Position numbers and translations under genes: made by a program. Below are positions 4,702 through 32,374 of a DNA stretch of 32,473 nucleotides, piece after piece. The notes below the pieces were generated by a model, which was not told the origin of the DNA, did no database searches, and was given only the letters and a program-made list of their open reading frames with translations. The stretch is from Candidatus Brocadia sp. (lineage in GTDB: Bacteria; Planctomycetota; Brocadiia; Brocadiales; Brocadiaceae). The stretch's first letter is position 1. The number at the start of each line of letters is the position of its first letter. The stretch lies in assembly GCA_013360945.1 (NCBI GenBank), contig JABWAQ010000034.1, forward strand, positions 1 through 32,473, given 5' to 3'.

Positions 4702-4848
4702 CTATTCTTTCTGAGCGCGTGCTATAGAGCCTTTCAGTAAAGCCACCACAGTGGTATTATAAACGATTTCCGCAGTCTGATAGGACTGCAGATTGCGGTA
4801 TCCGTCGTGCGGCGGGATAAGTTGGGGAAAGTCCTTTGAATCAGTCAT
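4702..4848 (-). pseudogene. Remnant of a second four-helix/suffix gene, internally deleted
   Basis: Reading down from the ATG at 4848 gives 48 codons. The first ~35 (MTDSKDFPQLIPPHDGYRNL...QSYQTAEIVYNTTVV) align well with the N-terminus of the intact gene at 3473-4030 (MTDPKESPLIPPHGGYRELQ...). The next stretch, in another frame, reads GGFTERLY and matches the extreme C-terminus of the same protein. About 130-140 central codons are gone and the join is frameshifted. The two copies have diverged in sequence, so this is an old separate copy and not a recent tandem duplication. It ends 7 nt before the cas4 ATG. Confidence 0.8.
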
Positions 4849-4863
4849 AGTGTGTTGCCTCTT

Positions 4864-5721: not shown

Positions 5722-5749
5722 TTTCTATTCCTCCTTAAATTTGAAGTGG

Positions 5750-8139: not shown

Positions 8140-8256
8140 ATAACCTCCTTTCATTTATAAAATATCCCCTTGCCCCTCTTTGCCAACGAGAGGCAAAAAA
8201 TACACTGCATAATGGGTTGTCCAAAAAGTTTATAAAACCAATTTCTGCATACATCT

Positions 8257-8286
8257 TGTAGTGGCAATTCATGAATTGCCACTACA
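8257..8286. repeat. 30-nt perfect palindrome between cas3 and cas5c
   Basis: TGTAGTGGCAATTCA followed by its exact complement makes a 15-bp hairpin in the gap between the cas3 stop and the cas5c start. It is not followed by a clear T-run on the minus strand, so it looks more like an intergenic repeat or an mRNA processing or stability hairpin than a terminator. Confidence 0.75.
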
Positions 8287-8327
8287 TATTAAATTCGATA
8301 TTTGTGACTTTTTAAACAATCCTCTTG

Positions 8328-11668: not shown

Positions 11669-13592
<1,924 letters not shown>

Positions 13593-14900
13593 AAATGCAA
13601 AATCGGCATCACGCATCATTGCTTCTGCCAACACTACCATAAAAAATGACGCCCTGAATTATATTGCCGACGGTATCATCTCCTCCGCTACCGTACTTAA
13701 GACAGAAAATGAAAAGGATATTGCCGCAGCACAGAAGGCGGGACTTTCCGGAGCCATTATTGACCGCCTTCGTCTCACCGACAGCCGTATCAGGGGTATG
13801 GCGGAGGGTGTAAGGCAGATTGTCAACCTTGCCGACCCGGTCGGTGCATTCCTCTGGGGGCATACGCGGCCCAACGGCCTGCAAATTCAGAAAGTACGGG
13901 TACCCATCGGTGTCATCGTCATTATTTATGAATCCCGGCCCAACGTAACGGCCGATGCGGCGGCATTGTGTCTGAAGGCCGGTAATGCGGTTATCCTGCG
14001 CGGAGGCAAGGAATCGATCCACTCCAATATTGCTATTTACAGGATTCTCACCGCTGCCCTGGAAAAGGCAGGGTTGGATACCCGGTGCATCCAGCTCATA
14101 GAGGTTATCGAACGCGAGGCCGTTGACTATTTGCTCAAGTCGGATCAGTATGTGGACGTCGTTATTCCCCGGGGTGGTGAGGCATTGATCCGTACGGTAG
14201 TAGAGAAATCAACGATTCCTGTCATCAAGCATTACAAAGGTGTATGCCACACCTACGTGGATGAGTTTGCCAATCTCAGGATGGCCGGGGAGATTTGTTG
14301 TAATGCCAAGGTACAACGTCCGGCCACGTGTAATGCCATGGAAACGATGCTGGTGCATGAAAAGATTGCGCCAATTTTTTTGCCAAACGTAGCGGAAAAA
14401 TTACAGGGTGCAGGAGTAGAAATCCGGGGTTGTGACATGACATGTAAAATTTTAGACCATATAAAACATGCTACCGAAGACGATTTTTATCATGAATATC
14501 TTGATTTGATTTTAAACATAAGGGTGGTAAAAAACCTGGACGAAGCAATTAATCATATTACCAAGTATGGATCAAATCATTCTGATGCGATTATTACCGA
14601 TAACGTTAATAATGCCATGAAATTTACCAAAGAAGTGGACTCAGCGGCGGTGTACGTCAATGCCTCTACCCGATTCACTGACGGCTATGAATTTGGTATG
14701 GGCGCAGAGATTGGCATTAGCACGGACAAACTTCACGCCCGCGGACCCATGGGCATTGAGGAACTCACCTCGTACAAATTCATAGTTTTTGGGGATGGAC
14801 AGTTAAGGACGTAATATATCAAGGCCATCTATTTTTATAAATTTCTACTGATCTCCCTACAATCAAAAAAAATTATATTCCAAAATTTTGATAAAGATTA

Positions 14901-15080: not shown

Positions 15081-15101
15081 TGATTGAACAAGGTTGTTAT
15101 A

Positions 15102-17168
15102 ATGAAGGAAGAACACATCATGCCTCCTGGCGAGTTAAGCCTTAGCGAGCAGGAGCTTCGGACCCGTAAGGACTATTTGGATTTTACTGAGCGGGACGCG
15201 GCCTTGTTGAAGGAATTAAACGGACTTATTCATCAACATGCCGACAGCATCATAAATGAATTTTACAACCATCTCCTCCGGTTTAAGGAAACGCAGGCTT
15301 TCTTCCCGGATGAAGAAACGATCAAAAATCTCAAGTACACACAAAAGGAATACCTTCTCATGCTAACCGGGGGTGATTACGATGAGAAATATTTCAGGCA
15401 TCGTTTAAAAGTCGGGAAGACCCACGACCGGATAAATCTGTTCCCCAAATGGTATATTGGGGCATATTGCCTGTATCATCGGCTTCTTTACCCGCTTATT
15501 ATTGAAACATACAAAGACCGCCCCGACAAGATGACGGACTATATCCTGGTACTGGACAAGATCATGAACCTCGATATGCAACTGGCCATGGATACCTATA
15601 TCCACAGCTATCATGCTGTGCTGGAGGAAAAGGTGCGGCTTGCCGAAATACAAACCAGGAAGCTCGAGGCAGCCAACAAGGCAAAGAGTGAGTTTCTTGC
15701 CAATATGTCCCATGAACTGCGCACCCCATTAAATGCAATTATCGGATTTTCTGAAGTGCTTCGTGATAAGTTGTGCGGTGATTTGAATGAGGAGCAGATG
15801 GATTTTGTTATGGACATCCATAGTAGCGGCAACCATCTCCTGCAGATGATCAACGACATCCTGGATCTTTCGAAAGTAGAATCAGGTAAGTTGGAATTAA
15901 AATATGAAGAGTTTGAGATTGGTAAGGCTATCGAGGCCGTCTTAATAACACTAAAAGGCCTTGCCCTTAAAAAATCGCTGACAATTAAAACGATTCTCCG
16001 CCATTCCTCTGATCGTCTCTCTGCCGATCCTGTCAAGTTCAAGCAGATTATGTATAACCTGCTTTCCAACGCCATTAAATTTACTCCAGAAAACGGGAAA
16101 ATTTCCATCCAGACAAAATTGAACCGAGATAAAAAGGATTTCATTGAGGTTGCTGTAACCGATACGGGCATTGGGATAGCCCCCGAAGATTATCCAAAGA
16201 TATTTGTGGAGTTCTCACAGGTTGACAGTTCTTATTCCCGTAAATTTGAAGGGACCGGGCTGGGATTAGCGCTTACCAAAAAATTAGTTGAGATGCATGG
16301 CGGTAAGATAGGGTTTGAGAGTAAGGTGGGAGCCGGAAGTACCTTCCGGTTTACCTTGCCGATGTATTCAACTGCACCATTGAATAAGAGAAGAGAGGTT
16401 GTCCCTTTACCAGAAAAACCGGTAAGTCACGGAACGGTACTGGTGGTGGAAGACGACCCGAAAACCAGCGAATTGCTGTGCGTCTTTTTAAACAAATCAG
16501 GGTATCAGACAATTACTGCATTCGATGGTGAAGATGCATTGCTAAAGGCGAAGAAATTCAAGCCATTCGCCATTACCCTGGACATAATGCTTCCCAAAAA
16601 AGACGGTTGGGAGGTGTTGAAAGAGCTTAAAGAGGACAAAGACGTTAAAGATATTCCCGTACTGGTGATTTCCATTATAGATAATAAGGACATTGGCTTT
16701 GGGTTGGGTGCAACCGATTATCTCAGTAAACCGGTAAGCAGAAGTGATCTATTATCAAAACTAACCTCATATGGACTTCTACCCGTTGTCAATAACTCGC
16801 CTACCAGGGTATTGATTATTGACGACGATCCTAAATCGATCGAACTGCTCAACACCCTCTTAAGCTCTGAAGGATATGATGTTTTAAAGGCTTCAGGAGG
16901 AAAAGAAGGGATCGATAAGACTTTTCTTTATAAACCGGATTTAATCCTTTTAGACCTGATGATGCCGGAGGTAAGCGGATTTGATGTCGTGGATACATTA
17001 AAAACTTCGCCGGAGACTAACACCATTCCCATTATCGTGATTACTTCAAAGGATTTGACACAGGCGGATAAGGATAAGTTAAACCATTGTGTTTCATTGG
17101 TGGTAAAAAAGGGGATGTATTCCAATGAGCGGTTCCTGAGTGATATCGCAGCCTTAAAAAAACACTAA
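15102..17168 (+). CDS. Globin-coupled sensor hybrid histidine kinase with two receiver domains
   Basis: Counted from ATG 15102 (688 aa; a TTG at 15084 and an ATG at 15120 are alternatives). Residues ~25-175 are a globin-coupled sensor (protoglobin) with the proximal-histidine motif '[21 protein letters not shown]' (His108). A short coiled coil leads to a HisKA domain with phosphoacceptor His204 in '[16 protein letters not shown]', then an HATPase with 'NLLSNAIKF', 'DTGIGIA' and 'GTGLGLAL'. Two tandem REC domains follow (~440-560, Asp in '[11 protein letters not shown]'; ~575-680, Asp in '[11 protein letters not shown]'). There is no membrane segment and no DNA-binding output. It probably senses O2, NO or CO through heme, a relevant cue for an anaerobe, and feeds a phosphorelay. 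No cognate partner adjoins it. Confidence 0.9.
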
Positions 17169-17555: not shown

Positions 17556-20126
17556 TTACAAAAAATCGGGAATGCACCCGGTTGAAGGTGTTTCTATAAC
17601 CCTTGCCTGAGCATCTCTATTTTGAAATGGCAGACTAATATAAAATTCTGTTCCAACGCCTTCTTTGCTTTCTATGTAGATACCTCCCTCATGGTCCTTT
17701 ACAATTCTGTACACGATAGCCAGACCAAGCCCGGTACCTTTATCTTTATCAGTGAAAAACGGTTCAAAGACGTGTGGGATCTTTTCCGCAGGAATTCCTG
17801 TCCCGTTATCGGAGATCTTTATAACGAAATACTGTTTATTTAAATCGCCCGAGACTGATGAGGCAAACGAAAAGAATACACTGCCGGGACGATCTTTTGC
17901 CATTATCCTGAATTCGGTGAGGCTATTCGTCGTGTATGTGTTTACATGAATATGCCCATTCATTGATAGCGCATCAAGGCTGTTTTGCAGGATATTTATC
18001 AGTACTTGTTTTATCTTGTCTTCATCTGCAATGAGCTGGCATCCTTCCTCCACCAACATGGTGCTTATTTCAACTCCTTTCTCCAGAGCAGTATTCTTTA
18101 AAAAATTAATGGTGTCCGTTATCGCACCATGGGGATCCAAGTACTGTACAACAGGCTTGGAAGGTTTAGCCAGATTTAGCATATCTTCAATAATTCTATT
18201 AATCCTCCCGATCTCCTTTAAGGCAATCTCCCTGAAATCATTCTGAAATTCTTCATCATCCTTCTTGTAAGGAAGGAGCTGAAAATAGGTGTTTATGGCC
18301 ACAAGGGGATTTTTTATTTCGTGGGCGACGTTAGAAGCAAGAACACCAAGATTGGCAAGCCGATCGGCGTGTTGCTTTTCTGCCTGGAGTACCTTTATTT
18401 CTGTCAGATCTGTCAGAATCAGTAATGCCCCGAGTTTCTCCCCTGCTTCAGTTTTGAGCTGAGTTATGGTTACACCACAGGGAATTTTTTTGTTATCTTT
18501 TTCAATGATAGTTTCAATGTCACTGCGATCTCTATTATTCTTTAACGTATGTCTCAGGAGTTTTTGAGTGTCTTTGTCAAGGGTATTCAGTATCGTTTCG
18601 CTTGAACTTGTACTTACTAATCCCAGGATGTTCCTTGCCTCATTATTTATAAGGGTAACCTCTTCATGAATATCCACTGCAATAACCCCGCATTTGAGAC
18701 TCTGGAGGATGTTGTCCCGATACGTCTTGGCCTCTTCCAACCCTGAATAGAGGCTGGCATTGTGAGCTGACATAGCTAATTGACCGGAAAATGCGAGAAA
18801 CATTTGAATATCTTCCTGGGTAAAGATCTTTTTGTCAGCCTTCTTTCCTAAAAGGATTATGCCAAAGAGGTTTTTTTCCTGAAGAACCGGGATACAACTG
18901 TCGACATCCAGGGATGCCAGTGTTTCTTCCAGTAAATGATCAAACTTATTATGCGCAAAACGGTTCACCTGTTCTTTAGAAAGAAATGTTTTATTTTGAC
19001 AAAGCCAGGCAACAATAGCATTCTGGCTTAGCAGGCATATGGTATTCCCGGATGGGAAATTTATAGCTGCCTCCATGGTATAATGTTGGGTTTTTTTGTC
19101 TTTAATCAGGATGGCTATCTTCTCAATACCTATAGAATCATATAAATACTGAATTGCAAAACGAAGAAGTCTGTTCAAATTATGGATAGACGAAAACATC
19201 ACCGTAGAGTTGCTGAGTATCTTCGGATGGCTGTACTTGGTGTGGAATAGACGGTTTTCAATAAAGTGTTGAATTGATTCCCGGGCAGGCACAAAAATTA
19301 AGACCATCACGACAACAGCAACTACATTCGTGACGGTCTCTTTGTATTCGGACACCGGCATTATGCAGCTTATAACGATTCCGGTTGCAAAATAAATGGC
19401 GCTGAGGATAATGGACAGTGAAGCATAAACAGTACTCCGCTTAATTACTACGCTGATGTCCATGAGGTGATATTTTACAATAGCATAAGCGACTGTTATC
19501 AGAATTGGTGCGGTAGCTATGGGGACAAAACTCTCAACGTGCCACACATGTATCGCCGGTAAGATAAAGTTCGTAATGGTTCCCAGAAATAAGGATAAGG
19601 CGACTCCAAAATAAAAGTATTGAATCTGTAATTTCTTTATTCCATAGTAGCGTATACTTTTTTTATAAAGGATATAAATGGAATATGCTGCACAAGCTAC
19701 AAAGTAAAAACAAAATACGGTGAAGAGTGGGCCGTATCTGGCACGGGGCAGATATTTTTCAAATGATACGGACTCAACAATAGAGGAGGAAAAAACCGTC
19801 AGAATTATGCTAATGACAAAAAATGCTATGCCAAAATATCGATTGGTAAAACTTTCTTTTTTATCTGGAAAGACTGAAGTAAAAAAGAAAAGGGTGGAAG
19901 GAATAAAAGTCGCTGCGCAAAAAACCAGCCTCAGCCTGAAGGCAGCCGACACAGGGTCTGTGGTCTGAAGCATATATAAAATTAAGGCGGTCCACGCACA
20001 AAAAGTATTTGCAACGATACAAAATCTCTTGTTAATGACATCAGACGGATTTCTAAAGAGTACAAAAAAACCGAGCCCGGTATATAGCAAGGATATTAAG
20101 AGAATTACTACATTGATTGCAATCAT
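17556..20126 (-). CDS. Membrane sensor histidine kinase (7TM-type N-terminus, GAF, PAS)
   Basis: The 856 aa have about eight hydrophobic segments in residues 1-280, a GAF domain (~315-460), a PAS domain (~470-580, 'CGVIAVDIHEEVTLINNEARNILGL'), HisKA with His602 in 'SNVAHEIKNPLVAIN', and an NtrB-like HATPase ending 'GTGLGLAIVYRIVKDHEGGIYIESKEGVGTEFYISLPF'. It starts 12 nt after the KS stop, with a weak ribosome site, so it is the last gene of the biosynthetic operon. NtrB-type kinases usually pair with sigma-54 activators, and one lies at the other end of this gene set. The GAF-PAS part resembles the kinase-less protein at 27990-29444. The architecture also resembles the PrsK kinases of PEP-CTERM systems, but no PEP-CTERM genes are here. 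Confidence 0.9.
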   Translation of the reverse strand: MIAINVVILLISLLYTGLGFFVLFRNPSDVINKRFCIVANTFCAWTALILYMLQTTDPVSAAFRLRLVFCAATFIPSTLFFFTSVFPDKKESFTNRYFGIAFFVISIILTVFSSSIVESVSFEKYLPRARYGPLFTVFCFYFVACAAYSIYILYKKSIRYYGIKKLQIQYFYFGVALSLFLGTITNFILPAIHVWHVESFVPIATAPILITVAYAIVKYHLMDISVVIKRSTVYASLSIILSAIYFATGIVISCIMPVSEYKETVTNVVAVVVMVLIFVPARESIQHFIENRLFHTKYSHPKILSNSTVMFSSIHNLNRLLRFAIQYLYDSIGIEKIAILIKDKKTQHYTMEAAINFPSGNTICLLSQNAIVAWLCQNKTFLSKEQVNRFAHNKFDHLLEETLASLDVDSCIPVLQEKNLFGIILLGKKADKKIFTQEDIQMFLAFSGQLAMSAHNASLYSGLEEAKTYRDNILQSLKCGVIAVDIHEEVTLINNEARNILGLVSTSSSETILNTLDKDTQKLLRHTLKNNRDRSDIETIIEKDNKKIPCGVTITQLKTEAGEKLGALLILTDLTEIKVLQAEKQHADRLANLGVLASNVAHEIKNPLVAINTYFQLLPYKKDDEEFQNDFREIALKEIGRINRIIEDMLNLAKPSKPVVQYLDPHGAITDTINFLKNTALEKGVEISTMLVEEGCQLIADEDKIKQVLINILQNSLDALSMNGHIHVNTYTTNSLTEFRIMAKDRPGSVFFSFASSVSGDLNKQYFVIKISDNGTGIPAEKIPHVFEPFFTDKDKGTGLGLAIVYRIVKDHEGGIYIESKEGVGTEFYISLPFQNRDAQARVIETPSTGCIPDFL

Positions 20127-20138: not shown

Positions 20139-21383
20139 CTAAAAGAATTTTTTTAACACAAGGACTGCATGTGTTCCACCTACACTATGGGTATTTATCA
20201 GCGCTTTGTCTATACTAAAATACCTGGCATTGTGCGGAACATAGTCAAGATCACAGAGAGGATCAGGCGCATCAAGATTAATTGTGGGAGGAATAATCCC
20301 ATTCTTCAGACCAAGGCTCGTTGCCACCACCTGGAAACCACCTGCTGCAGCAAAGGCATGGCCTGTCATGGACTTGATTGAACTTATTGGAATGTTATAA
20401 GCATGCTCTTTAAAGAATGCCTTAAAGGCATTTGTTTCTGCCAGATCGTAACTAGGAATGGCGTTCCCGTGGGCGCAGATATAATCAATTTCATCTTCCC
20501 TGACTTTACCGGTAATTAATGCCTGTTTCAACGCAGAGAACAACGTCTTTCCGCTCATTTCAACATGAAAAACGTCTTGCGCCTCGCATGCAGTGGCATA
20601 GGATGCGATCTCAGCATAGATATTCGCATCTCTGTTTAAGGCATGGCTCAGTTCCTCAATCACTATTGACACTCCGCCTTCGCTGGGCACTAAACCATCA
20701 CGATTCTTATCATACGGTCTTGATGCCTTCTCTGGATTTTCGTTCCTTTTTGAGAGTATTCCTAAAGAAGAAAAACCAGAGATTGCAAAGGGAAATATCA
20801 TAGAATCTGCACACGCCACAACTGCGACATCTACCTCTCCCTTCTTTACCATACTATATCCCCAATTTACAACGTCAAGCCCGGTTGAGCATCCGGATGA
20901 CAGGGTTGAATTAGGACCGCTGATATTTAATTCTGCACATATGTAACCTGTTACCACGTGTGGAGTAACCTCAGGGGCTGTATAACGTCCCACTGCCTTC
21001 GGGCCAAACTCCAGGAATCTCTGATACTGATGTTCATAAATGTCGTTTTCAGCGCCTATCGTGGTACCAAAACACACGCCACATCTGTCACTATTCTCCT
21101 TACCCGAATCAATGCCAGAGTCTGCCACCGCCATCTTTGCCGTAGCAACACCGTAGTGGCAGCACCGTGCACTTTTTTTGACCAATTTTGGATCAAAGTA
21201 ATCGCAAGGGTTAAAGTTTTTCACCTCACCCGCAATCTGAGTGCTAAAGGGAGAAGGGTCGAAGGAGGTAATCCTTTTTATCCCTGATCGTCCGTTGATC
21301 AGCGCATCCCAATATGCATCTTTACCATTACCGTTAGGAGCCAATATTCCCAGTCCGGTGATAACGGCGCGCCTTGTCAACAT
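20139..21383 (-). CDS. Beta-ketoacyl-ACP synthase, FabF-like (KS1), catalytic triad intact
   Basis: I start at ATG 21383, 414 aa, with GGAGA upstream; the ATG overlaps the radical SAM stop by 7 nt. Condensing-enzyme residues are Cys165 ('LSSGCSTGLD'), His305 ('ICAHGNAIPSYD') and His342 ('SIKSMTGHAFAAAGG'). The enzyme should catalyse decarboxylative Claisen condensation on ACP-bound chains. Two features are unusual. The nucleophile loop reads SGCSTG instead of TACATG. The C-terminal gate loop reads NTHSVGGTHA where FabF enzymes have NSFGFGGTNA, so the gating Phe is Val. This suggests an altered substrate pocket and not housekeeping fatty acid synthesis. It is translationally coupled to the radical SAM gene. 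Confidence 0.93.
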   Translation of the reverse strand: MLTRRAVITGLGILAPNGNGKDAYWDALINGRSGIKRITSFDPSPFSTQIAGEVKNFNPCDYFDPKLVKKSARCCHYGVATAKMAVADSGIDSGKENSDRCGVCFGTTIGAENDIYEHQYQRFLEFGPKAVGRYTAPEVTPHVVTGYICAELNISGPNSTLSSGCSTGLDVVNWGYSMVKKGEVDVAVVACADSMIFPFAISGFSSLGILSKRNENPEKASRPYDKNRDGLVPSEGGVSIVIEELSHALNRDANIYAEIASYATACEAQDVFHVEMSGKTLFSALKQALITGKVREDEIDYICAHGNAIPSYDLAETNAFKAFFKEHAYNIPISSIKSMTGHAFAAAGGFQVVATSLGLKNGIIPPTINLDAPDPLCDLDYVPHNARYFSIDKALINTHSVGGTHAVLVLKKFF

Positions 21384-23203
21384 AATACTTTTTCTCCACA
21401 AAACACAACCGTCTGTGCCGAAGAAGAGTTTTTTTCCGCCAGTTCACGGCTATGTGTGTTTATTCTTTGGTAAACATCTCTCAGGAAGCTATAGTCTGTC
21501 GTCAATAAAGCCAAATCACTTCTCATCTTGAATTCCTCTAAGCCCTTTTGCCCTTCGAACCCTGCGCTCCTTGCCGCAAGGCAATGTTCATCTGAGACGT
21601 TTACTACGTAACCCATTTCTCTGATCTTTTTTTCCATGAGTCCGGACATTCTTAACATATTCATGAACTTCATTCCGTGTAAGGAGATATCCAGTTCAGG
21701 CCAGGTGCTTGGATCCTTTGTCAGTTCATACTCATACCGTAAGACTGTCTGGAAATAATCTTCAGGCAGTTCGAACCCGAATCTTTTTGATTCCATTTGC
21801 CATGCTGTGCCAGGCAGAGGTGCAGACGGGGTTACAAGGACTGAATCAGGTTTATAACCCTCATTTTTTAATTTCTGAAGGAAATACAGATTATCTTCTA
21901 AAATTTGTTCCTGGGTTATATTACTGCCAGGAGGTAATGGGCAAGGATAAATAAAACTTATACCAACGTCAAGATGTTTTCTTTGGTTATAGGATGCCTG
22001 CTTTAGGGCCTTAACGGTAAAATAGACGTCCTCCACCGTATTCCCTTTGTCCATAACCTTTGAAAGGATATCGTTGTTCGCTACTTCAGCCCCAAGAAAA
22101 ACGGCTTTTAGCCCTGAACGTATTATTTTTTCATAGGCTTCTACAAGTTCCGTCAACCGCTCTTTCGCCTTCGTTTCAGCCCGGACAAACATTGAATATT
22201 CAATATGTATTCCCTCTGTCAACAATGCGTCAGCGATCCGGTTGCCCAGTGAAACAGGCGTTGTGGAACCGGCAAACCTGAAAAGTCCAATTTCCGTTTC
22301 TTGTATTGTTTCCTTGATTTCACGAATGGTAATGTTAATATCGCGTGTCTGGTATTTGCCGGTAATCTTTGGATGCGTACAGAAATTGCACTTTCCATAA
22401 TAACATCCGGAAGATTCGTTTATTACCGCTATATTTACCTTTCCATCGTCCTTTTCATAAAGGGGGAAAGGTTTTGCGTTCAAAGAAAGCCTTTTAATGG
22501 AAGTTTCTTTTACTTCACCATTATTTCCCTTGTATATTATGTTAAAGATTTTCCCTGCTTCTGCAAGGTCGGTGATTCTTTTTATCGCATCGGATTTTGT
22601 TCCCCCCCTGGAATAGATTTCTTTTACAATATTCATAATCTGTATAAGGGTTACTTCACCCTCAACGTCGATACAGAGGTCAAATGGACTTTTTTCCAAT
22701 GCATGTATCTTAAATTGATTTACCTGTGGTCCACCCGCAACTATCAAGGTGTTTGGACTCAATTCATTAACCCTTTGTGCAAGCTTTTCGGAGTACGTGA
22801 ATCTATCCCCCAGCCATGTCTTGATCCCAAGTACTTTTACCTGGTTCTCACGTACCTTGCGGGCCAGACCGTCAAGGTACTTCTCCATCTTTTCTTTGAT
22901 AACATGTTCAAGATTGTCCTGAAGGAGGTTCCATTCTTTTCTTAAGGATACAGTATCTTCCCTATTTCGGCTGTCGAAGATCCGCACGGAGAGCTCTGAC
23001 AGCCGTGACATAAGATCGTTTTTTGTGAATGCCGTGTAAAATTCGATTCTTGCCGGGTCTTCAATGTCAATATTAAATCCAGCTTCTTTACATGCCCTGG
23101 CCAGTATTCCAATGCCGTTTTCTTTAAAGCAATCACTCACGGAATAGGCCTTTCCCATGAATGAATTCCACAAGAGAAGGTCTGTACTGCGGGAGACACT
23201 CAT
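21377..23203 (-). CDS. Cobalamin-binding-type radical SAM protein
   Basis: The 608 aa have an N-terminal B12-binding-like Rossmann region (about 1-200, 'VLGIKTWLGDRFTYSEKLAQ...LIVAGGPQ'), interrupted by a helical insert of ~60 residues (~60-120). The radical SAM core starts at Cys267: 'SSGCYYGKCNFCTHP', a Cx4CxxC cluster motif (267, 272, 275), not the standard Cx3CxxC. The B12 domain lacks the DxHxxG motif, as do many class B enzymes. Such proteins do radical methylation, ring closure or rearrangement. AAGGAGG lies before the ATG. It lies between the acp and KS1 genes and overlaps KS1, so it likely acts on an ACP-bound or lipid chain. In anammox bacteria, enzymes of this type are candidates for cyclobutane ring formation; that role is unproven. 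Confidence 0.88.
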   Translation of the reverse strand: MSVSRSTDLLLWNSFMGKAYSVSDCFKENGIGILARACKEAGFNIDIEDPARIEFYTAFTKNDLMSRLSELSVRIFDSRNREDTVSLRKEWNLLQDNLEHVIKEKMEKYLDGLARKVRENQVKVLGIKTWLGDRFTYSEKLAQRVNELSPNTLIVAGGPQVNQFKIHALEKSPFDLCIDVEGEVTLIQIMNIVKEIYSRGGTKSDAIKRITDLAEAGKIFNIIYKGNNGEVKETSIKRLSLNAKPFPLYEKDDGKVNIAVINESSGCYYGKCNFCTHPKITGKYQTRDINITIREIKETIQETEIGLFRFAGSTTPVSLGNRIADALLTEGIHIEYSMFVRAETKAKERLTELVEAYEKIIRSGLKAVFLGAEVANNDILSKVMDKGNTVEDVYFTVKALKQASYNQRKHLDVGISFIYPCPLPPGSNITQEQILEDNLYFLQKLKNEGYKPDSVLVTPSAPLPGTAWQMESKRFGFELPEDYFQTVLRYEYELTKDPSTWPELDISLHGMKFMNMLRMSGLMEKKIREMGYVVNVSDEHCLAARSAGFEGQKGLEEFKMRSDLALLTTDYSFLRDVYQRINTHSRELAEKNSSSAQTVVFCGEKVLC

Positions 23204-23281
23204 TATAAACCTCCTTAAAACAAAGAGTTTGTTTGATGGAGCAGATTTGAATTTTCCGTTAAATTAGGCCTTCGGCGACCT

Positions 23282-23323
23282 ACCCCCCTGTTTCCCCCTG
23301 TAAACGGAGGGATTATGGGGGGT
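23282..23323 (-). repeat. Nested hairpin between acp and radical SAM genes
   Basis: ACCCCCC (23282-23288) pairs with GGGGGGT (23317-23323), enclosing an imperfect inner stem (CCCCCTG...CGGAGGG). It lies in the 143-nt gap upstream of the strong ribosome site of the radical SAM gene and may attenuate or process the operon mRNA. It could also be a dispersed palindrome. Confidence 0.6.
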
Positions 23324-23346
23324 GTTTAAAATTCCTATACGTAAAT

Positions 23347-23613
23347 TTATCTTGCAGTTCTTAAGCTCATTTTTTCTTTTACCAGATTGACCATCTTTTG
23401 CACGGTTAAATTTCTATCCGCCTCTTCATTGGAAATTTCTACGTCAAATTCGGTTTCAATACTATACAAAAGATTAATCATGTCTGCAGATTCTGCACCA
23501 ATATCATTGACAATATGTGAATTATCATGAATATCTTCTGGTTCTACCTTGAGTTCCTTTGCCAATATTTTTTTAAGCCCTTCTTTAATCATATCATCTG
23601 TTATATTTTCCAT
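23347..23613 (-). CDS. Acyl carrier protein
   Basis: The 88-aa acidic protein has the four-helix ACP pattern. The phosphopantetheine attachment site is Ser42 in 'VNDIGAESADMINLLYSIETEFDVEI'. The usual motif is GADSLD; here it reads GAESAD, which suggests a specialised carrier. It has a slightly basic C-terminal tail (SLRTAR). GGAGGT lies 11 nt before the ATG. It would carry the growing chain between the two active ketosynthases, the His-less KS-like partner and the radical SAM enzyme. The housekeeping acpP normally clusters with fabD/fabG/fabF, which are absent here, supporting a dedicated pathway carrier. Confidence 0.94.
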   Translation of the reverse strand: MENITDDMIKEGLKKILAKELKVEPEDIHDNSHIVNDIGAESADMINLLYSIETEFDVEISNEEADRNLTVQKMVNLVKEKMSLRTAR

Positions 23614-23780
23614 TGCTCTCTACCTCCAAGATTTTTTCACGTATAGAATCACATTATAGAACAAACACATTTCCCTTTTGACATACTCTGCAATTTGTCG
23701 TTGGTTGCCCTGATAGCGCTTTGAAATATTGTAAATTCCCTCCTTCCTGAATTACGAGTTTGAGATATACGTGGTTAATG

Positions 23781-25031
23781 TTAAATGGATTTATTAAACC
23801 TTTTTATTACCATGGTTGAGTTATTACCTCCAAAACCAAAGGAGTTTGAAAGGGCAGTGGTAATTTCTTTCCTTCGTGCTTTATTTGCAACATAATCCAG
23901 ATCGCATTCAGGGTCAACATTATCTAAATTAACAGTAGGCGGGAGCACACTGTTTTTTATCGCTAAAATGCAGGTGATGAGTTCAACTGCACTGGCAGCC
24001 CCCATTAAATGTCCCGTCATTGACTTCGTTGAACTGATCGGTATGCGGTAAGCGCGGTCTCCAAAAACCGTTTTTATCGCTTTCGTTTCTCCCCTGTCAT
24101 TTGCTATGGTTGATGTTCCATGTGCATTAATATAATCAATATCGTTAATTTTCAGGTCAGCATCTTCTATGGCCAAACTCATTGCCTTGCATATTTGCAT
24201 CCTGTCCTGGGATGGCATGGTCATATGAAAGGCATCACTTGTCGCTCCATAACCGGCTAATTCACCATAAATATGCGCCCCTCTTTCGCAAGCGTTTTCT
24301 TCACTTTCGAGTATCAACATGCCGGCGCCCTCACCCATGACAAACCCATCCCTGTCCTTGTCAAAAGGTCTGATGGCTTTTGCAGGCTGGTTATTCCTTT
24401 TTGACATTATTCTCAAGGAACAAAAAGCCGCCAGAATAAGTGGGAAAATAGGCGCCTCAACCCCCCCTGTCAGAACGAGGTTGGCTTGACCTGACTGGAT
24501 CATGTTTCGCGCTATTCCTATAGCCTGATTTCCGCTTGAACAAGCTGTTGCTACAATTAAGCTTTGACCAGAAAAACTGAAAAAATCAGAGAGTATGTTC
24601 GATGTGTTTCTGCTATCCGCAGGAGGTTTAGTCCGCAAGGTATAGTTGTTGCTCTCAATAGCAGTTTTTTCATCGTAATATGACAATATCTCGTCGCCTA
24701 ATCCAATCGATACCCCGATTTTACTTTTGTCTGCACGAGAAAAGTCCAGCTTTGCATCCTTTACTGCCATTTGGGCCGCTGCTAAACCCAATTGAGAATA
24801 TCTGCTCAAATTGTTAGCCAACCCCCCTGCCATGTATTCTTCAGGGTTAAAATTCTTTATTTCACCGGCTATCTTTGTAGGATAATTTTCTACATTGAAT
24901 CTGGAAATCGTTGAGATACCTGATTCTCCGCGCATGACAGATTTCCAGTACTCCTCTATTCCAATTCCGATTGGCGTAATGATCCCTATCCCCGTTACCA
25001 CAACTTTATTTTTCTTAAAATGTTCATTCAT
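23781..25031 (-). CDS. Beta-ketoacyl-ACP synthase II-like (KS2), active
   Basis: The 416 aa are a complete FabF-type condensing enzyme. The triad is Cys164 ('VATACSSGNQA'), His304 ('INAHGTSTIAND') and His341 ('STKSMTGHLMGAAS'), with Lys336 and the gate loop 'SNSFGFGGNNS' near 395-405. It would elongate ACP-bound chains with malonyl-ACP. It lies between the His-less KS homolog (104 nt upstream) and the ACP gene (167 nt downstream). Its pairing with that homolog resembles the KS-alpha/KS-beta gene pairs of type II polyketide and aryl-polyene systems, although here the partner keeps its Cys. Two adjacent ATG codons (25031 and 25027, different frames) are present; the first fits the family. Confidence 0.95.
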   Translation of the reverse strand: MNEHFKKNKVVVTGIGIITPIGIGIEEYWKSVMRGESGISTISRFNVENYPTKIAGEIKNFNPEEYMAGGLANNLSRYSQLGLAAAQMAVKDAKLDFSRADKSKIGVSIGLGDEILSYYDEKTAIESNNYTLRTKPPADSRNTSNILSDFFSFSGQSLIVATACSSGNQAIGIARNMIQSGQANLVLTGGVEAPIFPLILAAFCSLRIMSKRNNQPAKAIRPFDKDRDGFVMGEGAGMLILESEENACERGAHIYGELAGYGATSDAFHMTMPSQDRMQICKAMSLAIEDADLKINDIDYINAHGTSTIANDRGETKAIKTVFGDRAYRIPISSTKSMTGHLMGAASAVELITCILAIKNSVLPPTVNLDNVDPECDLDYVANKARRKEITTALSNSFGFGGNNSTMVIKRFNKSI

Positions 25032-25135
25032 TTTCTATGAGCACCTGCGAGTTTATTAAATAACCGTCCTTCACTGCAAAATAAGCAAAACAATTATCCC
25101 TTCGGCATTCTCCTGCGCCATTCCTGCCGTTACCG

Positions 25136-26365
25136 TCAAACCCTCTTAAAGAGGAGCGATATATTATTACCGGCGTAGTCAAAATTGTTTGATAGTATTG
25201 TGTTTACAGACTTGAACTCCGGTTTTTTAAGAATATGAATTGAATTACATTCCGGATCAATATTCTCAAGGTTGTTTGTTTGTGGCAAAACCCGCTTTTT
25301 TAGAGACAATAATGAAAAGATTGCATCAATGGGACCAGATGCGCCAATTGAGAATCCTATACTCCCCTTCGTTGAACTTACAGAAATCTTGTGAATATTT
25401 TCTCCAAAGACTGACTTTATTACCTCAGATTCTTCTCTGTCTTCCCGCATTCCCGAGATGCCGCTTGCGTTAATGTAATCAACATCTTTTGGATCAATGG
25501 ATGCGGACTCCAATGCCTGTTTTATGCAGGAAATTTTAGAATGAAAACCCTGTTTATGTTTGTTTTCAGCATCATTGTTAGCATAAGAAGCCCCAAACCC
25601 AACAAGTTCGCCATAAACCTCTGCACCCCTCTTTTCTGCGCTGCTCAGCGACTCTAAAACGATAACACCAGCACCCTCACTCAAAACAAAGCCTTTTCTG
25701 TCAATGTCAAATGGGCAACTCGCTCTGGTTAAGCCATGGTTATTTGATTTGAACAAACCTTTCTGTCTTAATCCTTCAAGAATCATTGAACTCAGTGGCG
25801 CTTCGGTTCCACCTGCAACCATTGCGTCTACATCATGCCGTTGTATGGTATTAAATGCATGAATTATGCTGTAGTTTCCGGAGCATGCACCACATGAAAA
25901 CCCTATATTAGGTCCTTTCAGGGTAAATTCAATGGCAACTTCACCAGATGGGGCATTCGTAAGATTGTTTTGCATTAAGAGGGGATGAACTCTTCTTGGA
26001 CCTTCTGTATAAAGAATTTTGATTTGCTTTTCGATGATGTTGAATCCACTAAACGCGCTACCGAGAAAGACCCCTATCTTTTCCTTATCAAATCCTTCAC
26101 CAATTTTTGCATCATGTAATGCAATCTTTGCAGCCACTAAAGCAAAACTCGTAAACTTGTCTATCTTATCTTTTTTCCCTTCGGGAATAAAAGTTTCGAG
26201 TTCACCATCAGGTACTTTGCCGGCATATGTTTTTGTGTTGACGTCTTCTGTTTCAAATTCTGTAATTCCTGATTTACCGGATAGATACCTTTCCCAGTTT
26301 TCATTTATGCCAACGCCAATCGGACTAACGACACCTATACCAGTCACAACTACTCGCTTTTTCAT
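25136..26365 (-). CDS. KS-like protein lacking both catalytic histidines (KS3, chain-length-factor-like)
   Basis: The 409 aa align over the full FabF fold (MKKRVVVTGIGVVSPIGVGINENWE...). The Cys is kept (Cys161 in 'FSCGACSGNYS'), but the first His is Ser301 ('INASGISGMRED' for NAHGTSTxxND) and the second is Phe338 ('STKGSIGFSIGASG' for STKSMTGHLMGAAG). The conserved Lys333 remains. The gate loop is 'SNNFDYAGNN'. Without histidines it should not decarboxylate malonyl-ACP, so it is more likely a structural or chain-length-determining partner of KS2, or an acyl-transferring enzyme using only Cys. Typical CLFs lose the Cys instead, so this is a different pattern. Promoter-proximal among the biosynthetic genes; AGGTG precedes the ATG. 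Confidence 0.9.
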   Translation of the reverse strand: MKKRVVVTGIGVVSPIGVGINENWERYLSGKSGITEFETEDVNTKTYAGKVPDGELETFIPEGKKDKIDKFTSFALVAAKIALHDAKIGEGFDKEKIGVFLGSAFSGFNIIEKQIKILYTEGPRRVHPLLMQNNLTNAPSGEVAIEFTLKGPNIGFSCGACSGNYSIIHAFNTIQRHDVDAMVAGGTEAPLSSMILEGLRQKGLFKSNNHGLTRASCPFDIDRKGFVLSEGAGVIVLESLSSAEKRGAEVYGELVGFGASYANNDAENKHKQGFHSKISCIKQALESASIDPKDVDYINASGISGMREDREESEVIKSVFGENIHKISVSSTKGSIGFSIGASGPIDAIFSLLSLKKRVLPQTNNLENIDPECNSIHILKKPEFKSVNTILSNNFDYAGNNISLLFKRV

Positions 26366-26483: not shown

Positions 26484-27869
26484 TTACATAATCTCATTGC
26501 CAGAGTCTGGAATTCCATATTTTCGCATCTTGTAATTAATGATGCGCCGGGTAGTCCCAAGGATCTTTGCTGCCTTTGATTTCACACCGCCAGACTCCTG
26601 GAGCGCTTGTTCTATAAGTTGCTTTTCAACCCGTGACACTTCCCTTTCCAGGGAAATTTCGCACGGTATATTTGGTTTCACTCTTTGAAGATTATCAGAA
26701 ATACCCGTGATCTCAACCGGCAAGTGTTCCGGGAGAATGGTTGGTTCATTGCCGTAGAGCGCAATAGTTCTTTCCATGATGTTTTTCAACTCCCGTATGT
26801 TTCCCGGCCATTGATACCCCATTAATGCCTCCATAGCCTCTTTTGATACAGATTCTGTTTTTGCGTGACACTCTTTTCGAAAGATATTGTAGAAATGCTC
26901 CACTAATAGGGGAATATCCTCCGGCCTGTCACGAAGGGGCGGTAAATAAACGGGGACGACGTTGATACGATAATACAAATCTTCACGGAATCGGCCATCC
27001 TTGATCATTGCTTCCAGATTTCTATTGGTTGCGGCAATTATACGCACATCTGTCTTTATAACAGAGTGGCTACCCAAACGAGAGAACTCCCTCTCTTGCA
27101 AAACACGCAATAATTTTGCCTGCAAAGGAAGGTTTATCTCGCTAATTTCATCCAAAAATATGGTGCCGCCTTCGGCTAGCTCAAACTTCCCCAACCTTCT
27201 TTCGTATGCACCAGTAAACGCCCCCTTTTCGTGACCAAAGAGTTCGGCTTCCAACAGGTCTCCTGCCAGGTTTGGACAACTTACAACAATAAACGGACTT
27301 TCCCGTCTGCCACTGTCAAAGTGAATTGCACGCGCTACCAATTCCTTGCCAGTTCCACTTTCTCCCCGCAGAAGAACCGTTGAATCTACTCTCGATACCC
27401 TGGAAATAACAGCAATTATTTCCTCCATCATTCGACTATGTCCATGTATCAGCCTATCTATTGAATGATACTTATATTCAGAGCGAAGATAACGAACCTC
27501 CTTGGTTAAACTTTTAAACTGCAGTGCCTTTTCAATAGTTATCTTAATCTCCTCAATTTCGAATGGCTTTACAATATAGTCCAGGGCGCCCAATCTAACA
27601 GCCTCTACGATTGATTTAACATCATTTACCGCTGTCAATACCACTACACCGGTTTCCTGAAAAGAGGGTTGCAACCTCCGCAGCAGTTCCATCCCATTCA
27701 TTTCATGCATCCTTAAGTCTAGCAACATGAGATCTATACGCTCTTTATCCAGTATCTTTAAGGCTTCTTTACCGCTATGAGTGCCTATAACCTTATAACT
27801 ATCCTTTAAAATATATCGAAGTGACTCTACAGCACTTGACTCATCATCTACTAATAATATGGTTTTCAT
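26484..27869 (-). CDS. NtrC-family sigma-54-dependent response regulator
   Basis: The 461 aa comprise REC (1-120, phosphoacceptor Asp51 in 'LMLLDLRMHEMNG', acid pair Asp8-Asp9), a AAA+ domain (~135-375) and a Fis-type HTH at the end ('KSKAAKILGTTRRIINYKMRKYGI'). In the AAA+ domain are Walker A GESGTGKE (169-176), the sigma-54-contacting loop GAFTGA (216-221) and Walker B 'GGTIFLDE'. It is therefore a complete activator able to remodel sigma-54 polymerase. It lies 118 nt upstream of KS3, and the operon ends with an NtrB-like kinase, its likely partner. A -24/-12 promoter lies upstream of the preceding gene. There is no good ribosome site at the ATG. Confidence 0.96.
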   Translation of the reverse strand: MKTILLVDDESSAVESLRYILKDSYKVIGTHSGKEALKILDKERIDLMLLDLRMHEMNGMELLRRLQPSFQETGVVVLTAVNDVKSIVEAVRLGALDYIVKPFEIEEIKITIEKALQFKSLTKEVRYLRSEYKYHSIDRLIHGHSRMMEEIIAVISRVSRVDSTVLLRGESGTGKELVARAIHFDSGRRESPFIVVSCPNLAGDLLEAELFGHEKGAFTGAYERRLGKFELAEGGTIFLDEISEINLPLQAKLLRVLQEREFSRLGSHSVIKTDVRIIAATNRNLEAMIKDGRFREDLYYRINVVPVYLPPLRDRPEDIPLLVEHFYNIFRKECHAKTESVSKEAMEALMGYQWPGNIRELKNIMERTIALYGNEPTILPEHLPVEITGISDNLQRVKPNIPCEISLEREVSRVEKQLIEQALQESGGVKSKAAKILGTTRRIINYKMRKYGIPDSGNEIM

Positions 27870-27989: not shown

Positions 27990-29444
27990 TCATGCCGGTT
28001 GTGTAACAAGCGTATCAGTTAATCTGTCTGAAATACCAGATGAGAATGTCAGGGTTTCCAAATTCTTTATTTTTGCTTCTAATTTCTCGACCTGACTTAA
28101 ACTCGATTGTAATTTCTTGATCTCACTCACATCGGATAATATTATAATTGCACCCAACTCACCCTCACTGTCCAATAAAGAAGTACTTACTGTGTATACA
28201 AAATGGGTAATCGGATGAACAATCTCAATCATCTCATAAATTTTTTTTTCTTTTAAAGTTCGCAGAATAATATCGGCAAATATAGAGCCTATATGCTTGA
28301 CATCTTTTCCTATTACATCATCCGGGGAAATATTGAGCATCTTTGCAGCGCTTTTATTAAAAGTATTAATCTTGCAGTTATTATTTATGGCGATTACCCC
28401 GCAAGGAATATTCTCTAAAATATTCTCATTACGAATCTTTCTCAGATTTGCCTCCCGGTATAGGAATGCATTCTCCACTGCCATGCCTGCATATCCTGCC
28501 AGCATGGAGAGCAATTCGATATCCTCATCAAAGAACGCTTTGCCCGTAATTTTGTTCCCCAAAGCAATCACACAACTGAGATTCCCATGAGCAAAAATAG
28601 GTACGCACAGCTGCGCTTGTAAAAGGTTCATTTCCTTCTGTATGCTTATTGCTTCACGCGTTGTTAATTTGTTGGTTGCAACTTCTCCGTCTATAACATC
28701 TTTATTTAATATCTGATGATTCCTGGCCAACCATAGCATGGTTCCGTGATTGGTAGTAAAGCAAATATTTTTAGCGGCTACATCATCTAAACCGAGGCAA
28801 CGATAGGGGCGGCTTTTGCCCTCCTTTTTGTATATCAGCATAAATACCACCCTTCCTACCCCAAATATTTCAGCCATTGCCTCAACCATCATATCAGCAA
28901 GTTTTTCAAGATCGTAAACACGCGTTAATACCTTCGAGAACTTCTGGAATACTTCCTTGTATACAAGGCGCGAATCACCGGCATCCGCTTGCTTATTGAA
29001 AGCTGATTCGGAGAACCCACTATCCTTCTTAACGGGTTTTAAATTTTTTATTTGTGACTGAAGAAAGCCCAATTCCTTTCTTATTTCGTGCTTTTCCAGA
29101 GCCCTCTGTAAGACGTGCTGTATTGCATCCTTACTAAGGGGTTTTTCCAGAAGTTCATATGCACCTATTCTCAGGGCTTCTTCGGATAGCGTTGGCTGAG
29201 ATTCAGGAACCAAGGCGACAATTGGCGGGTCTATATTTGATTGTCTCAGTTTTTCCAGGAGTTTATTTGTCTCATCGTTACTTAATAGAATATCTAAAAA
29301 AATTACATCAATATCTCTTCTAAGGCATATTTGTAATGCTTCGTCAGGTGTCTTGGCAGTATAAACTATATTAATTCCGTTTAAAGACTTTTTAAACAAG
29401 CCACAAACCGAATTATCGTTTGTAACTACCAAGAAAGAGTACAT
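27990..29444 (-). CDS. REC-GAF-PAS protein without kinase domain
   Basis: The start is ATG 29444 (484 aa), with AAGGAG 8 nt upstream; a 48-codon in-frame extension upstream lacks a ribosome site and family similarity. REC: 1-115, with Asp51 and Lys101 kept, but the Mg-binding acid pair is Thr8-Asn9 (VVTNDNSV where VVDDD is usual), so phosphorylation may be weak or absent. GAF: ~165-335. PAS: ~345-450 ('CGVIAINNNCKINTFNKSAAKMLNIS'). It ends in a short coiled coil with no HisKA, HATPase or DNA-binding domain. Its GAF-PAS half parallels that of the kinase at 17556-20126, so it may dimerise with or modulate that kinase. First gene of the minus-strand cluster. Confidence 0.85.
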   Translation of the reverse strand: MYSFLVVTNDNSVCGLFKKSLNGINIVYTAKTPDEALQICLRRDIDVIFLDILLSNDETNKLLEKLRQSNIDPPIVALVPESQPTLSEEALRIGAYELLEKPLSKDAIQHVLQRALEKHEIRKELGFLQSQIKNLKPVKKDSGFSESAFNKQADAGDSRLVYKEVFQKFSKVLTRVYDLEKLADMMVEAMAEIFGVGRVVFMLIYKKEGKSRPYRCLGLDDVAAKNICFTTNHGTMLWLARNHQILNKDVIDGEVATNKLTTREAISIQKEMNLLQAQLCVPIFAHGNLSCVIALGNKITGKAFFDEDIELLSMLAGYAGMAVENAFLYREANLRKIRNENILENIPCGVIAINNNCKINTFNKSAAKMLNISPDDVIGKDVKHIGSIFADIILRTLKEKKIYEMIEIVHPITHFVYTVSTSLLDSEGELGAIIILSDVSEIKKLQSSLSQVEKLEAKIKNLETLTFSSGISDRLTDTLVTQPA

Positions 29445-29600: not shown

Positions 29601-29617
29601 TGCAACTTTAATACCAA
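29601..29617 (-). promoter_or_regulatory. Sigma-54 (-24/-12) promoter of the minus-strand cluster
   Basis: On the minus strand TTGGTATTAAAGTTGCA. GG (29614-29615) and GC (29602-29603) are separated by exactly 10 nt and the TTGCA half is perfect against the YTGGCACGRNNNTTGCW consensus; three positions of the -24 half differ. Transcription would start near 29590, about 145 nt before the REC-GAF-PAS gene, which is followed by a sigma-54 activator gene. Confidence 0.6.
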
Positions 29618-30210: not shown

Positions 30211-31236
30211 ATGGAACAGAAAATTAAAACATCAAACATACTTGTGATCGATGATGACCTGGGCGTAAGGGAATCATTAAAAATAATCTTGAAGGACAAG
30301 TATTGTGTTTCTGTTGCATCAAACATTGATGAAGCCTTTGATTGCTTGAAAAACATACTACCAGAGGTGATCTTTCTCGACATAAAAATGCCCAGGGCAA
30401 ACGGTCTGGATTTCCTTAAAGTGATGCGTTCCACGAATTCGAATATCCCCATAATCATGATCACGGCCTTTCCCTCCACACAAACCACAATTACCGCCTT
30501 ACGAAACGGGGCGTTTGATTATATAATCAAACCCTTTCAACCCTCAGAAATACTTGCTGTAGCAGAAAAGGCCCTACACCATAACATCGAATTATCGAAA
30601 AAAGACAGACTTGTGTATAACCTGCGGATGGCTGTTCAAGAGAATTTCTTTTCAACTACAGAAGCCCTTTTGCATGCTATCGACGCGAAAGACTCTTACA
30701 CGGCAGGGCACTCGAAAAGGGTGTCACTACTGTTCGCTTTCGTAGCCGGGGATCTTGGCATGAGCAAATCACAAATTGAAGTCTTGCAATACGGTGCATT
30801 CCTTCACGATATAGGAAAGATTGGGGTGGGTGATATTGTACTGGCAAAGCCCGGCAATCTTACCGAGGCAGAATTTTCTTTAATGAAGCGCCATTCTGAG
30901 ATAGGTTACAAAATTATTGAGCCTATCAACTTCTTAAAAGAATGCTTGCCAATGGTGCGCCACCATCATGAATGGTACAATGGCAGAGGCTATCCGGATT
31001 GCCTGCAGGGGACTAAAATTCCTTTTGAGGCCAGTATCCTCTCTATAGTAGATGCTTATGATGCCCTGACCACTGACAGACATTATCACAAAAAATACTC
31101 CCATCAGGAGGCATATAGGATCATACAACAGGGAATAAGTACACAATTTGTGCCTTCCCTGACAGAAAAGGTCCTTTCCATCATTGACAAATACCGCGAA
31201 ACTTGTATGAAAGATGAGCAGGAAGAAGATTCTTGA
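30211..31236 (+). CDS. Response regulator with HD-GYP domain (c-di-GMP phosphodiesterase)
   Basis: The 341 aa consist of a REC domain (1-125; acid pair in 'VIDDD', Asp57 in 'IFLDIKMPRANG', Lys107 in 'YIIKPF') and an HD-GYP domain (~150-330). HD-GYP metal and substrate motifs are present: 'GHSKRVS' (166-172), His199-Asp200 in 'FLHDIGKIGVGD', 'KRHSEIGYKII', 'HHHEWYNGRGYP' (251-262) and 'DAYDALTTDR'. The protein should hydrolyse c-di-GMP when phosphorylated. AAGGA lies upstream of the ATG. It diverges from the biosynthetic cluster and shares its control region, so the NtrC-type activator may co-regulate it. No kinase adjoins it directly. Confidence 0.95.
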   Translation: MEQKIKTSNILVIDDDLGVRESLKIILKDKYCVSVASNIDEAFDCLKNILPEVIFLDIKMPRANGLDFLKVMRSTNSNIPIIMITAFPSTQTTITALRNGAFDYIIKPFQPSEILAVAEKALHHNIELSKKDRLVYNLRMAVQENFFSTTEALLHAIDAKDSYTAGHSKRVSLLFAFVAGDLGMSKSQIEVLQYGAFLHDIGKIGVGDIVLAKPGNLTEAEFSLMKRHSEIGYKIIEPINFLKECLPMVRHHHEWYNGRGYPDCLQGTKIPFEASILSIVDAYDALTTDRHYHKKYSHQEAYRIIQQGISTQFVPSLTEKVLSIIDKYRETCMKDEQEEDS

Positions 31237-31333
31237 TATCTTTTGTGCCACTCATTTCCCGAGCGTTTAAATATTGGGGGTTACCGTAATACGGCTGGCT
31301 ATAAATTTCAATTACTGATTTACAGCTTGTTAG

Positions 31334-32374
31334 CTAACTAACGTCCACTAATTTGAGACGTACCATGTTTAATGCGGTATTTGCTGAAATTTTTTTAATA
31401 TCTCTCCGGGAACCCCGAAACCGGTATTCTTTTACGTCGGTAAGATCGCCTATCGCAACGGCTATGTAGACCAAACCCACAGGTTTTTCCTTTGTTGCGC
31501 CCGCAGGACCTGCAATTCCTGTAATACCGACTCCAATATGTGCCGAAGCCCTTTTTTTTATACCTTCCGCCATGACCCTGGCCACCTCTGAACTTACAGC
31601 ACCATACCTCAGAACAAGGTCCTCCGGCACACCCAGCGCATCGATCTTTGCCTTATTACTGTAAGCAACAACCCCTTCTAAAAAAAAATCGGAAATTCCT
31701 GGAATGTTTGTGAGTTTGTCAGAAACCAATCCCCCCGTACAGGATTCGGCAAGAGCTATTGTCTTATTACATTTTTTCAGGAGTACGGAAACTGCATATT
31801 CAAGAGTCTCATCACCTGCTCCAAAGACGGTATGACCCAACTCATTTCGAATATCCAGTTCCACGCTGTCCAAAATCTTTAAGGCATTTTCTCTCTCTGC
31901 AGCAGTTGCAAGGATACTTATTGATACTATGCCGGCGTCTGCTAACGTCAGCACCTTCACATGTCCTTCTTTTCCCTGATAGACCTTCAATGCTTCTTCC
32001 ACAGCACATTCGGAAATACCAAAGGTGTGTAAGTTCCTGGTCAATGTACATCCTTCAATTGATTTGTGTTGTACGGCAGAAATCTCTAAATATTTATCCA
32101 ACATGGGCTGCATTTCTCCGGGAACTCCGGGCAAACAGACGATTTCTTTGTTATGATACCAGAGGGCAAATCCAGTTGCAGTTCCATTATCATGGTAAAT
32201 CACCCGCGCACCTTCAGGAATAAGGGTCTGTTTCTTATGTCCACCCGGCAGGTTTCCACGTTGTTCCCACAGATATTGCTGAATACGATTGCATGCTTCT
32301 TCGTCTGGTACTAAGGGAACACCAAAAAAATCTGACACGGCTTCAGAGGTTATGTCATTTGCCGTAGGACCCAT
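31334..32374 (-). CDS. cinA: CinA-family protein (nicotinamide-nucleotide amidohydrolase), N-terminally truncated
   Basis: The 346 aa begin inside the N-terminal MoCF/CinA domain at 'MGPTANDITSEAVSDFFGVP', which corresponds to 'GGLGPTxDDLT...' at about residue 70 of a normal ~415-aa CinA. The rest is complete: the middle KH-like region and the C-terminal PncC amidase with 'ALAESCTGGLVSDKLTNIPG' and 'GVGITGIAGPAGATKEKPVG'. PncC deamidates NMN in pyridine nucleotide salvage and should be functional. Upstream in the same frame is a TGA 12 nt before the ATG, and none of the 99 nt before it resembles the missing domain, so the loss is real unless the assembly is wrong. It converges with the HD-GYP gene. 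Confidence 0.85.
   Translation of the reverse strand: MGPTANDITSEAVSDFFGVPLVPDEEACNRIQQYLWEQRGNLPGGHKKQTLIPEGARVIYHDNGTATGFALWYHNKEIVCLPGVPGEMQPMLDKYLEISAVQHKSIEGCTLTRNLHTFGISECAVEEALKVYQGKEGHVKVLTLADAGIVSISILATAAERENALKILDSVELDIRNELGHTVFGAGDETLEYAVSVLLKKCNKTIALAESCTGGLVSDKLTNIPGISDFFLEGVVAYSNKAKIDALGVPEDLVLRYGAVSSEVARVMAEGIKKRASAHIGVGITGIAGPAGATKEKPVGLVYIAVAIGDLTDVKEYRFRGSRRDIKKISANTALNMVRLKLVDVS

Follow-up and report, generated by a model that had tools for sequence, protein, structure and literature searches.

A probable anammox operon that pairs a cobalamin-type radical SAM enzyme and a ketosynthase with two-component sensor genes

The Candidatus Brocadia sp. contig JABWAQ010000034.1 (from the 3.85-Mb assembly GCA_013360945.1; its positions 1 to 32,473 are hereafter the window) contains a co-directional series of minus-strand genes, 29444 to 17556, that opens with two response regulators and closes with a histidine kinase. 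Between them lie genes for acyl chemistry, which Pfam and NCBIfam assign alike to three ketoacyl synthases (KS), an acyl carrier protein (ACP), and a B12-binding/radical S-adenosylmethionine (SAM) protein. A preliminary description had placed these five genes correctly in coordinates and strand, and had treated them as a self-contained unit with a possible, unproven link to ladderane synthesis; they are instead embedded in the longer series of sensor genes.

Read in the direction of transcription, the series begins with a receiver-GAF-PAS protein (27990..29444, with a TTG start at 29588 also open; Pfam) and an NtrC-type response regulator with sigma-54 AAA+ and Fis-type helix-turn-helix domains (26484..27869; Pfam, NCBIfam). 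Next come KS_A (25136..26365; NCBIfam, KS alignment), a KS-like protein with the catalytic Cys and both His replaced; KS_B (23781..25031; TIGR03150), a FabF-type ketosynthase; an ACP with a GAESAD motif (23347..23613; Pfam PF00550); the cobalamin-binding radical SAM enzyme (21377..23203), recognized through Pfam, alignment, an AlphaFold model, and fold matches; and KS_C (20139..21383 from an ATG, with a TTG at 21401 also open; Pfam, NCBIfam). The last gene, 12 nt downstream of KS_C, encodes a sensor histidine kinase with multiple transmembrane segments (17556..20126; Pfam HisKA_7TM, PAS, HisKA, and HATPase). As had been described, KS_C overlaps the radical SAM gene; the shared stretch is 7 nt if KS_C begins at the likelier ATG (21383) and 25 nt if it begins at the TTG. 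Divergent from the operon is the gene of an HD-GYP response regulator (RR-HD-GYP; 30211..31236, plus strand; Pfam), and a sigma-54 promoter-like site on the minus strand, TGGTATTAAAGTTGCA, occupies 29601..29616 (pattern and intergenic alignment). Ketoreductase, dehydratase, enoyl reductase, acyltransferase, and thioesterase are all missing among the 25 annotated window proteins (smaller open reading frames were left unannotated), which agrees with the original account.

Comparison of the locus across 25 genomes besides the window's (gene cut-off 45% identity, or 27% for the distant G030) distinguishes a constant core from optional genes. The receiver-GAF-PAS and radical SAM genes are present in all 25, and KS_C and the kinase in 24 each; the sole missing pair belongs to locus L080, which lies at a contig end. 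The kinase directly follows KS_C in 23 of the 24 visible relatives, and in G030 a 32% homolog sits five open reading frames downstream. Spacing is equally constant: in 22 genomes measured (without G004, G030, L080, and L081, and with some start codons trimmed), the gap between KS_C and the kinase is at most 20 nt in 21, and the radical SAM and KS_C genes overlap or lie within 60 nt of each other in 20. The outer flanks vary by genus; the core gene group stays intact. By comparison, KS_A, KS_B, and the ACP are each found in only 7/25 relatives, which rules out the five-gene unit as a conserved entity. Because core order and spacing are kept and the trio is so sparsely distributed, the core enzymes are tied to the sensor genes, with the trio as an optional insert. 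In a 21-genome tree (G007, G015, G019, L080, and L081 had broken or incomplete frames or were not entered) the presence of the trio needs three changes, at least two judging by well-supported branches; the sequences fit either an ancestral trio that may have been lost repeatedly or two gains.

Accessory genes are intermediate in frequency: RR-HD-GYP in 20/25, a FadL-type outer-membrane gene in 18/25, and the NtrC-type regulator in 14/25, with several of the absences of outer genes due to contig ends. The FadL-type gene stands beside RR-HD-GYP in most relatives; it is absent at the corresponding place in the window (31236-31334), and also from G008 and G010. A convergent hybrid histidine kinase with a Protoglobin sensor domain (15084-17168) adjoins the locus, as a neighbor only in the window's genus. 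In the Anammoxibacter locus L094, a second B12-radical SAM gene (13240-14643; DUF4070 match) follows the KS, and is itself followed by a transposase and then the kinase homolog.

The ketosynthases differ in their active sites. KS_B keeps the Cys, His, and His residues and scores 495.9 bits against TIGR03150, for which the NCBIfam FabF equivalog cut-off is 493.75. In the window, the KS_C active-site residues are Cys, His, Lys, and His; among 25 genomes read (the window and G019 counted, L080 having no KS in view), 19 have Gln and six have His at the position of the second catalytic His. Those six are the window and five others, every one of which carries the trio; AMX1 and G018 are trio carriers whose KS_C has Gln. 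The earlier claim of two active ketosynthases thus holds for the window in so far as residues can predict activity, and is less certain for the Cys/His/Gln form of KS_C in most relatives. In KS_A, Ala, beside a Cys, occupies the nucleophile column, and Ser and Phe stand in place of the two His, so that the label KS-like fits; the best matches of KS_A among solved structures are FabF proteins, not chain-length factors. In the ACP (39 bits to PF00550), GAESAD replaces the DSLD-type motif, as had been noted, and includes the presumed attachment Ser. (The ACP comparison leaves out the ACPs of contigs C85 and C59.) Elsewhere in the window's assembly, loci L001, L002, L003, and L005 hold large open frames of 1109-2777 aa with ketoacyl synthase domains, which may be contamination; the eight KSs of Kuenenia stuttgartiensis, in contrast, are in frames of 362-417 aa.

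The radical SAM enzyme matches PF04055 at 34 bits and the B12-binding domain PF02310 at 31.0 bits, slightly below the cut-off of 32.1. Its AlphaFold model and structure matches predict the class B arrangement, in which the radical SAM domain comes after the B12-binding domain, in support of the cobalamin-type assignment made earlier. The usual radical SAM cluster motif is CX3CX2C; here, the three cluster Cys are invariant in 14/14 aligned sequences with the spacing CX4CX2C, which recurs in the distant G341 homolog. The named radical SAM families score far under their NCBIfam cut-offs (PhpK, 59 of 600 bits; BchE, 54 of 481; TIGR04072, 47 of 360), and no solved structure is detectable by sequence. 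The enzyme resembles the class B cobalamin enzymes OxsB, TsrM, MgmA, CysS, and TokK in its two domains and modeled overall fold, but structure alignments with them show only 11-19% identity, and it differs further in the invariant CX4CX2C, an N-terminal motif of its own (WNSFMGKAYS), and the acyl-operon context. It is a separate family with, on the model, a class B cobalamin fold.

The kinase has a sensor region with multiple transmembrane segments and, by eye, seemingly intact catalytic boxes. The model of its membrane region is helical and of low confidence (pLDDT 68, pTM 0.61); the best Foldseek matches are seven-transmembrane receptors, among them the calcium-sensing receptor (E 2e-4, TM-score about 0.5). 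The result would suit a receptor but is not taken as homology, and it says nothing about the ligand. Among NCBIfam families, the kinase is nearest to AtoS (PrsK is also listed) and the NtrC-type regulator to AtoC, which recalls the AtoS/AtoC and PrsK/PrsR systems; however, all scores are under the family cut-offs, and the linked genes differ.

The pattern TGGYAYN5TTGC, facing the operon, lies between the divergent regulators in 16/21 genomes, versus a mean of 0.03/21 and a maximum of 1 in 200 rounds of block shuffles (the genomes are related, hence not independent). Among the exceptions, three Jettenia-genus genomes have a near form and two Kuenenia-genus genomes have none. In the alignment of nine Brocadia-genus genomes, the site and the block that follows it, CATWATTGTTCA, stand out from an otherwise diverged intergenic region, and this block is conserved in 9/9. 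A candidate −24/−12 site at the operon front and an NtrC-type regulator in the locus (in the window and 14/25 relatives) are both features of a sigma-54/NtrC operon. The match is to a degenerate form of the consensus; near-strict sigma-54 patterns found nothing at the operon. Toward RR-HD-GYP, the weaker form TGGYAYN5WTG is present in 14/21 genomes (shuffle mean 0.43, maximum 2), the window not included. Upstream of KS_A and of the radical SAM gene no convincing sigma-54 site was found; the window's best candidate before the latter was equaled in 9/100 shuffles.

The module is nearly confined to anammox bacteria, which upholds the association made in the preliminary description. Close relatives of the radical SAM enzyme (at least 52% identity) occur in 18/39 genomes, a set to which the window's genome belongs. 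When named genome contigs were scanned with two exact peptide patterns, a requirement that may let distant relatives escape, 19 loci were returned; every title is Planctomycetota or an anammox genus (Brocadia, Jettenia, Loosdrechtia, Kuenenia hertensis, and Anammoxibacter). In an even draw of 392 genomes from the phylum, the threshold of E 1e-40 is passed by 21, of which 20 belong to the window's family and one, G341, has a distant lone homolog. The Anammoxibacter genome G030, from another family and outside that draw, also carries the module. Two plasmid records gave weak partial matches only, and no viral relative was found. Two 3.7-kb contigs of the window's assembly, C104 and C105 (loci L047 and L048), were rejected as paralogs: their KSs are 100% identical over 414 residues to those of G022 and G015, and the contigs are therefore contamination by DNA of the Jettenia genus. 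Locus L109 (8783-10723), in a planctomycete that belongs to a different family, is a lone 33% radical SAM homolog without a KS or similar kinase, and with a second B12-radical SAM-like gene nearby.

The analysis shows which genes are present and in what conserved order, that enzyme and kinase are absent together, the active-site residues, the fold class, and a promoter-like site. Most likely the operon's enzymes produce an acyl product bound to ACP, or modify one; gene content supports the earlier suggestion of acyl-ACP type chemistry involving a cobalamin-type radical SAM enzyme. The setting among sensor genes points to a fatty molecule that is sensed or sensor-controlled, not to ladderanes. 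Our tentative preference is for a sigma-54-dependent two-component operon that has its own acyl enzymes and forms a self-reinforcing acyl-signal circuit. Transcription would start at the conserved sigma-54 site, activated where present by the NtrC-type regulator, which the multi-transmembrane kinase of the operon most likely phosphorylates. The radical SAM enzyme would then modify, most likely methylate, an acyl chain carried by an ACP, which the ketosynthase coupled to it would extend or release; in a subset of species the set of KS, KS-like protein, and ACP, whose arrangement recalls minimal type II polyketide synthases, might supply that chain. The weakest step is the closing of the circuit, in which the kinase ligand would be the product itself, with RR-HD-GYP as a possible output and the FadL-type protein as possible transport.

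Such a circuit would follow the logic of the diffusible signal factor (DSF) system, Rpf. As in RpfF, RpfC, and RpfG, an acyl-acting enzyme, a membrane histidine kinase, and an RR-HD-GYP are encoded together, and RpfC, according to PMC5391125, binds DSF. The window differs in having a B12-radical SAM enzyme and KS instead of crotonase-type RpfF, an additional NtrC/sigma-54 branch, and no known signal. Because there is no crotonase domain, and hence no crotonase-type synthase, in the 25 annotated window proteins, the locus is not a member of the Rpf family of systems, although the membrane histidine kinase and RR-HD-GYP of those systems are both present. A bolder version, which we consider unlikely, is a new anammox autoinducer-type circuit: the radical SAM enzyme and KS would make an acyl signal sensed by the kinase of the same operon, with positive feedback through sigma-54 and a cyclic di-GMP (HD-GYP) arm possibly governing granule aggregation.

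A structural lipid is almost as likely a product as a signal. The operon could be one for membrane lipid tailoring under two-component control, its kinase sensing membrane state or stress and its product a methyl-branched or otherwise altered structural acyl chain; this, too, is a realistic possibility. The same gene order and co-absence data serve it equally, C-methylases abound in the radical SAM enzyme's fold class, and a FadL-type protein is compatible with lipid traffic. Moreover, branched fatty acids such as 10-methylhexadecanoic acid occur in anammox bacteria. What makes us hesitate, as a matter of judgment, is the presence of RR-HD-GYP and the additional receiver-GAF-PAS protein, which exceed the usual switch for lipid homeostasis. 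The self-reinforcing signal circuit has also to be weighed against a small secondary-metabolite cluster, with KS_B, KS_A, and the ACP as its minimal type II polyketide synthase; the remaining genes would tailor the product, and the sensor genes would be ordinary regulators of the cluster. Chain-length factors lack catalytic residues and stand beside an intact KS; KS_A, without all three residues, does so next to KS_B and the ACP, so that the three types of gene (KS alpha, KS beta without the catalytic Cys, ACP) are found in a row. Nevertheless, the window sequences are FabF-like, KS_A included, and no ketoreductase or cyclase is nearby. Because the trio is missing from 18/25 core carriers, it is not the basis of the conserved function, and this explanation is improbable.

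The idea of a step in ladderane synthesis draws on the anammox-centered distribution, and on a KS/ACP/B12-radical SAM content like that of the candidates published in PMC2649909. These Kuenenia stuttgartiensis clusters (kuste2803-2805 and others) are likewise from an anammox bacterium and have KS and B12-radical SAM genes side by side, but the window has another radical SAM family, no orthologous KS, and other neighbors, and its module is absent there. The comparison rests on G020, a genome in one 4.4-Mb contig with eight KSs and three ACPs, which is that of K. stuttgartiensis: its HzsA, of hydrazine synthase (HZS), matches PDB 5c2v, presumably from this species, at 782/782 residues. Table 2 of Rattray 2009 (PMC2649909) has three unusual KS paralogs; the G020 active sites agree with it at 6/6 positions for kuste3606 and kuste2805, and at the three readable positions for kuste3348. 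The genes called kuste2803 and kuste2804 in G020 are named from their position next to the kuste2805 match.

In this genome, orthologs of the kinase and of the radical SAM enzyme are absent together. KS_A, KS_B, and KS_C form three clades without any K. stuttgartiensis member, in a tree with all eight KSs of that species and all but three of 13 KS loci (the two C59 KSs and the C85 fabF). The kuste2803-2805 genes have counterparts elsewhere in the window genome, where other KSs pair with kuste2804 and kuste2805 beside an 82% identical kuste2803 counterpart; the radical SAM protein of the window, by contrast, shares with the kuste2803 protein 25% identity over 175 residues. Across HZS-positive genomes the module is present in 13/26 and absent from 13/26, although nine of the non-carriers are less than 95% complete, so that some absences may be gaps, and only K. 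stuttgartiensis is identified among them by name. (No HZS family was found in the window's own assembly or in G001, G003, G006, and G008 of the same genus; this is read as probable assembly loss.) The cluster is anammox-centered, yet is missing from half of the HZS-positive genomes, and three of its five genes are optional. On distribution and orthology, a ladderane step is rejected; the link is not supported, and the cluster is neither a published candidate nor required for ladderanes. As a general step this role is largely refuted, and we regard it as very improbable. A tempting but wrong candidate for ladderane synthesis is thereby removed.

Anammox bacteria grow as aggregates. If the operon, present in part of the group, is a self-regulated one for an acyl product, it offers a concrete candidate, open to testing, for the way in which these cells perceive one another or the state of their membranes. 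Anammox bacteria have so far proved refractory to pure culture (PMC9821293). A literature search, with subscription journals mostly outside its reach, found no paper on this gene combination, and the passages of PMC11224092 on anammox quorum sensing do not mention the locus.

The same window contains a CRISPR-Cas locus (22-10538) with Cas3, Cas5, Csd1, Cas7, Cas4, Cas1, and Cas2, a gene make-up that we take to be type I-C, and 22 repeats at 22-1457. Two proteins of the 23S-rRNA-intervening-sequence type are set amid the cas genes (2019-2384 and 3473-4063): one between cas1 and cas2, and the other, a weak match under the Pfam cut-off, between cas4 and cas1.
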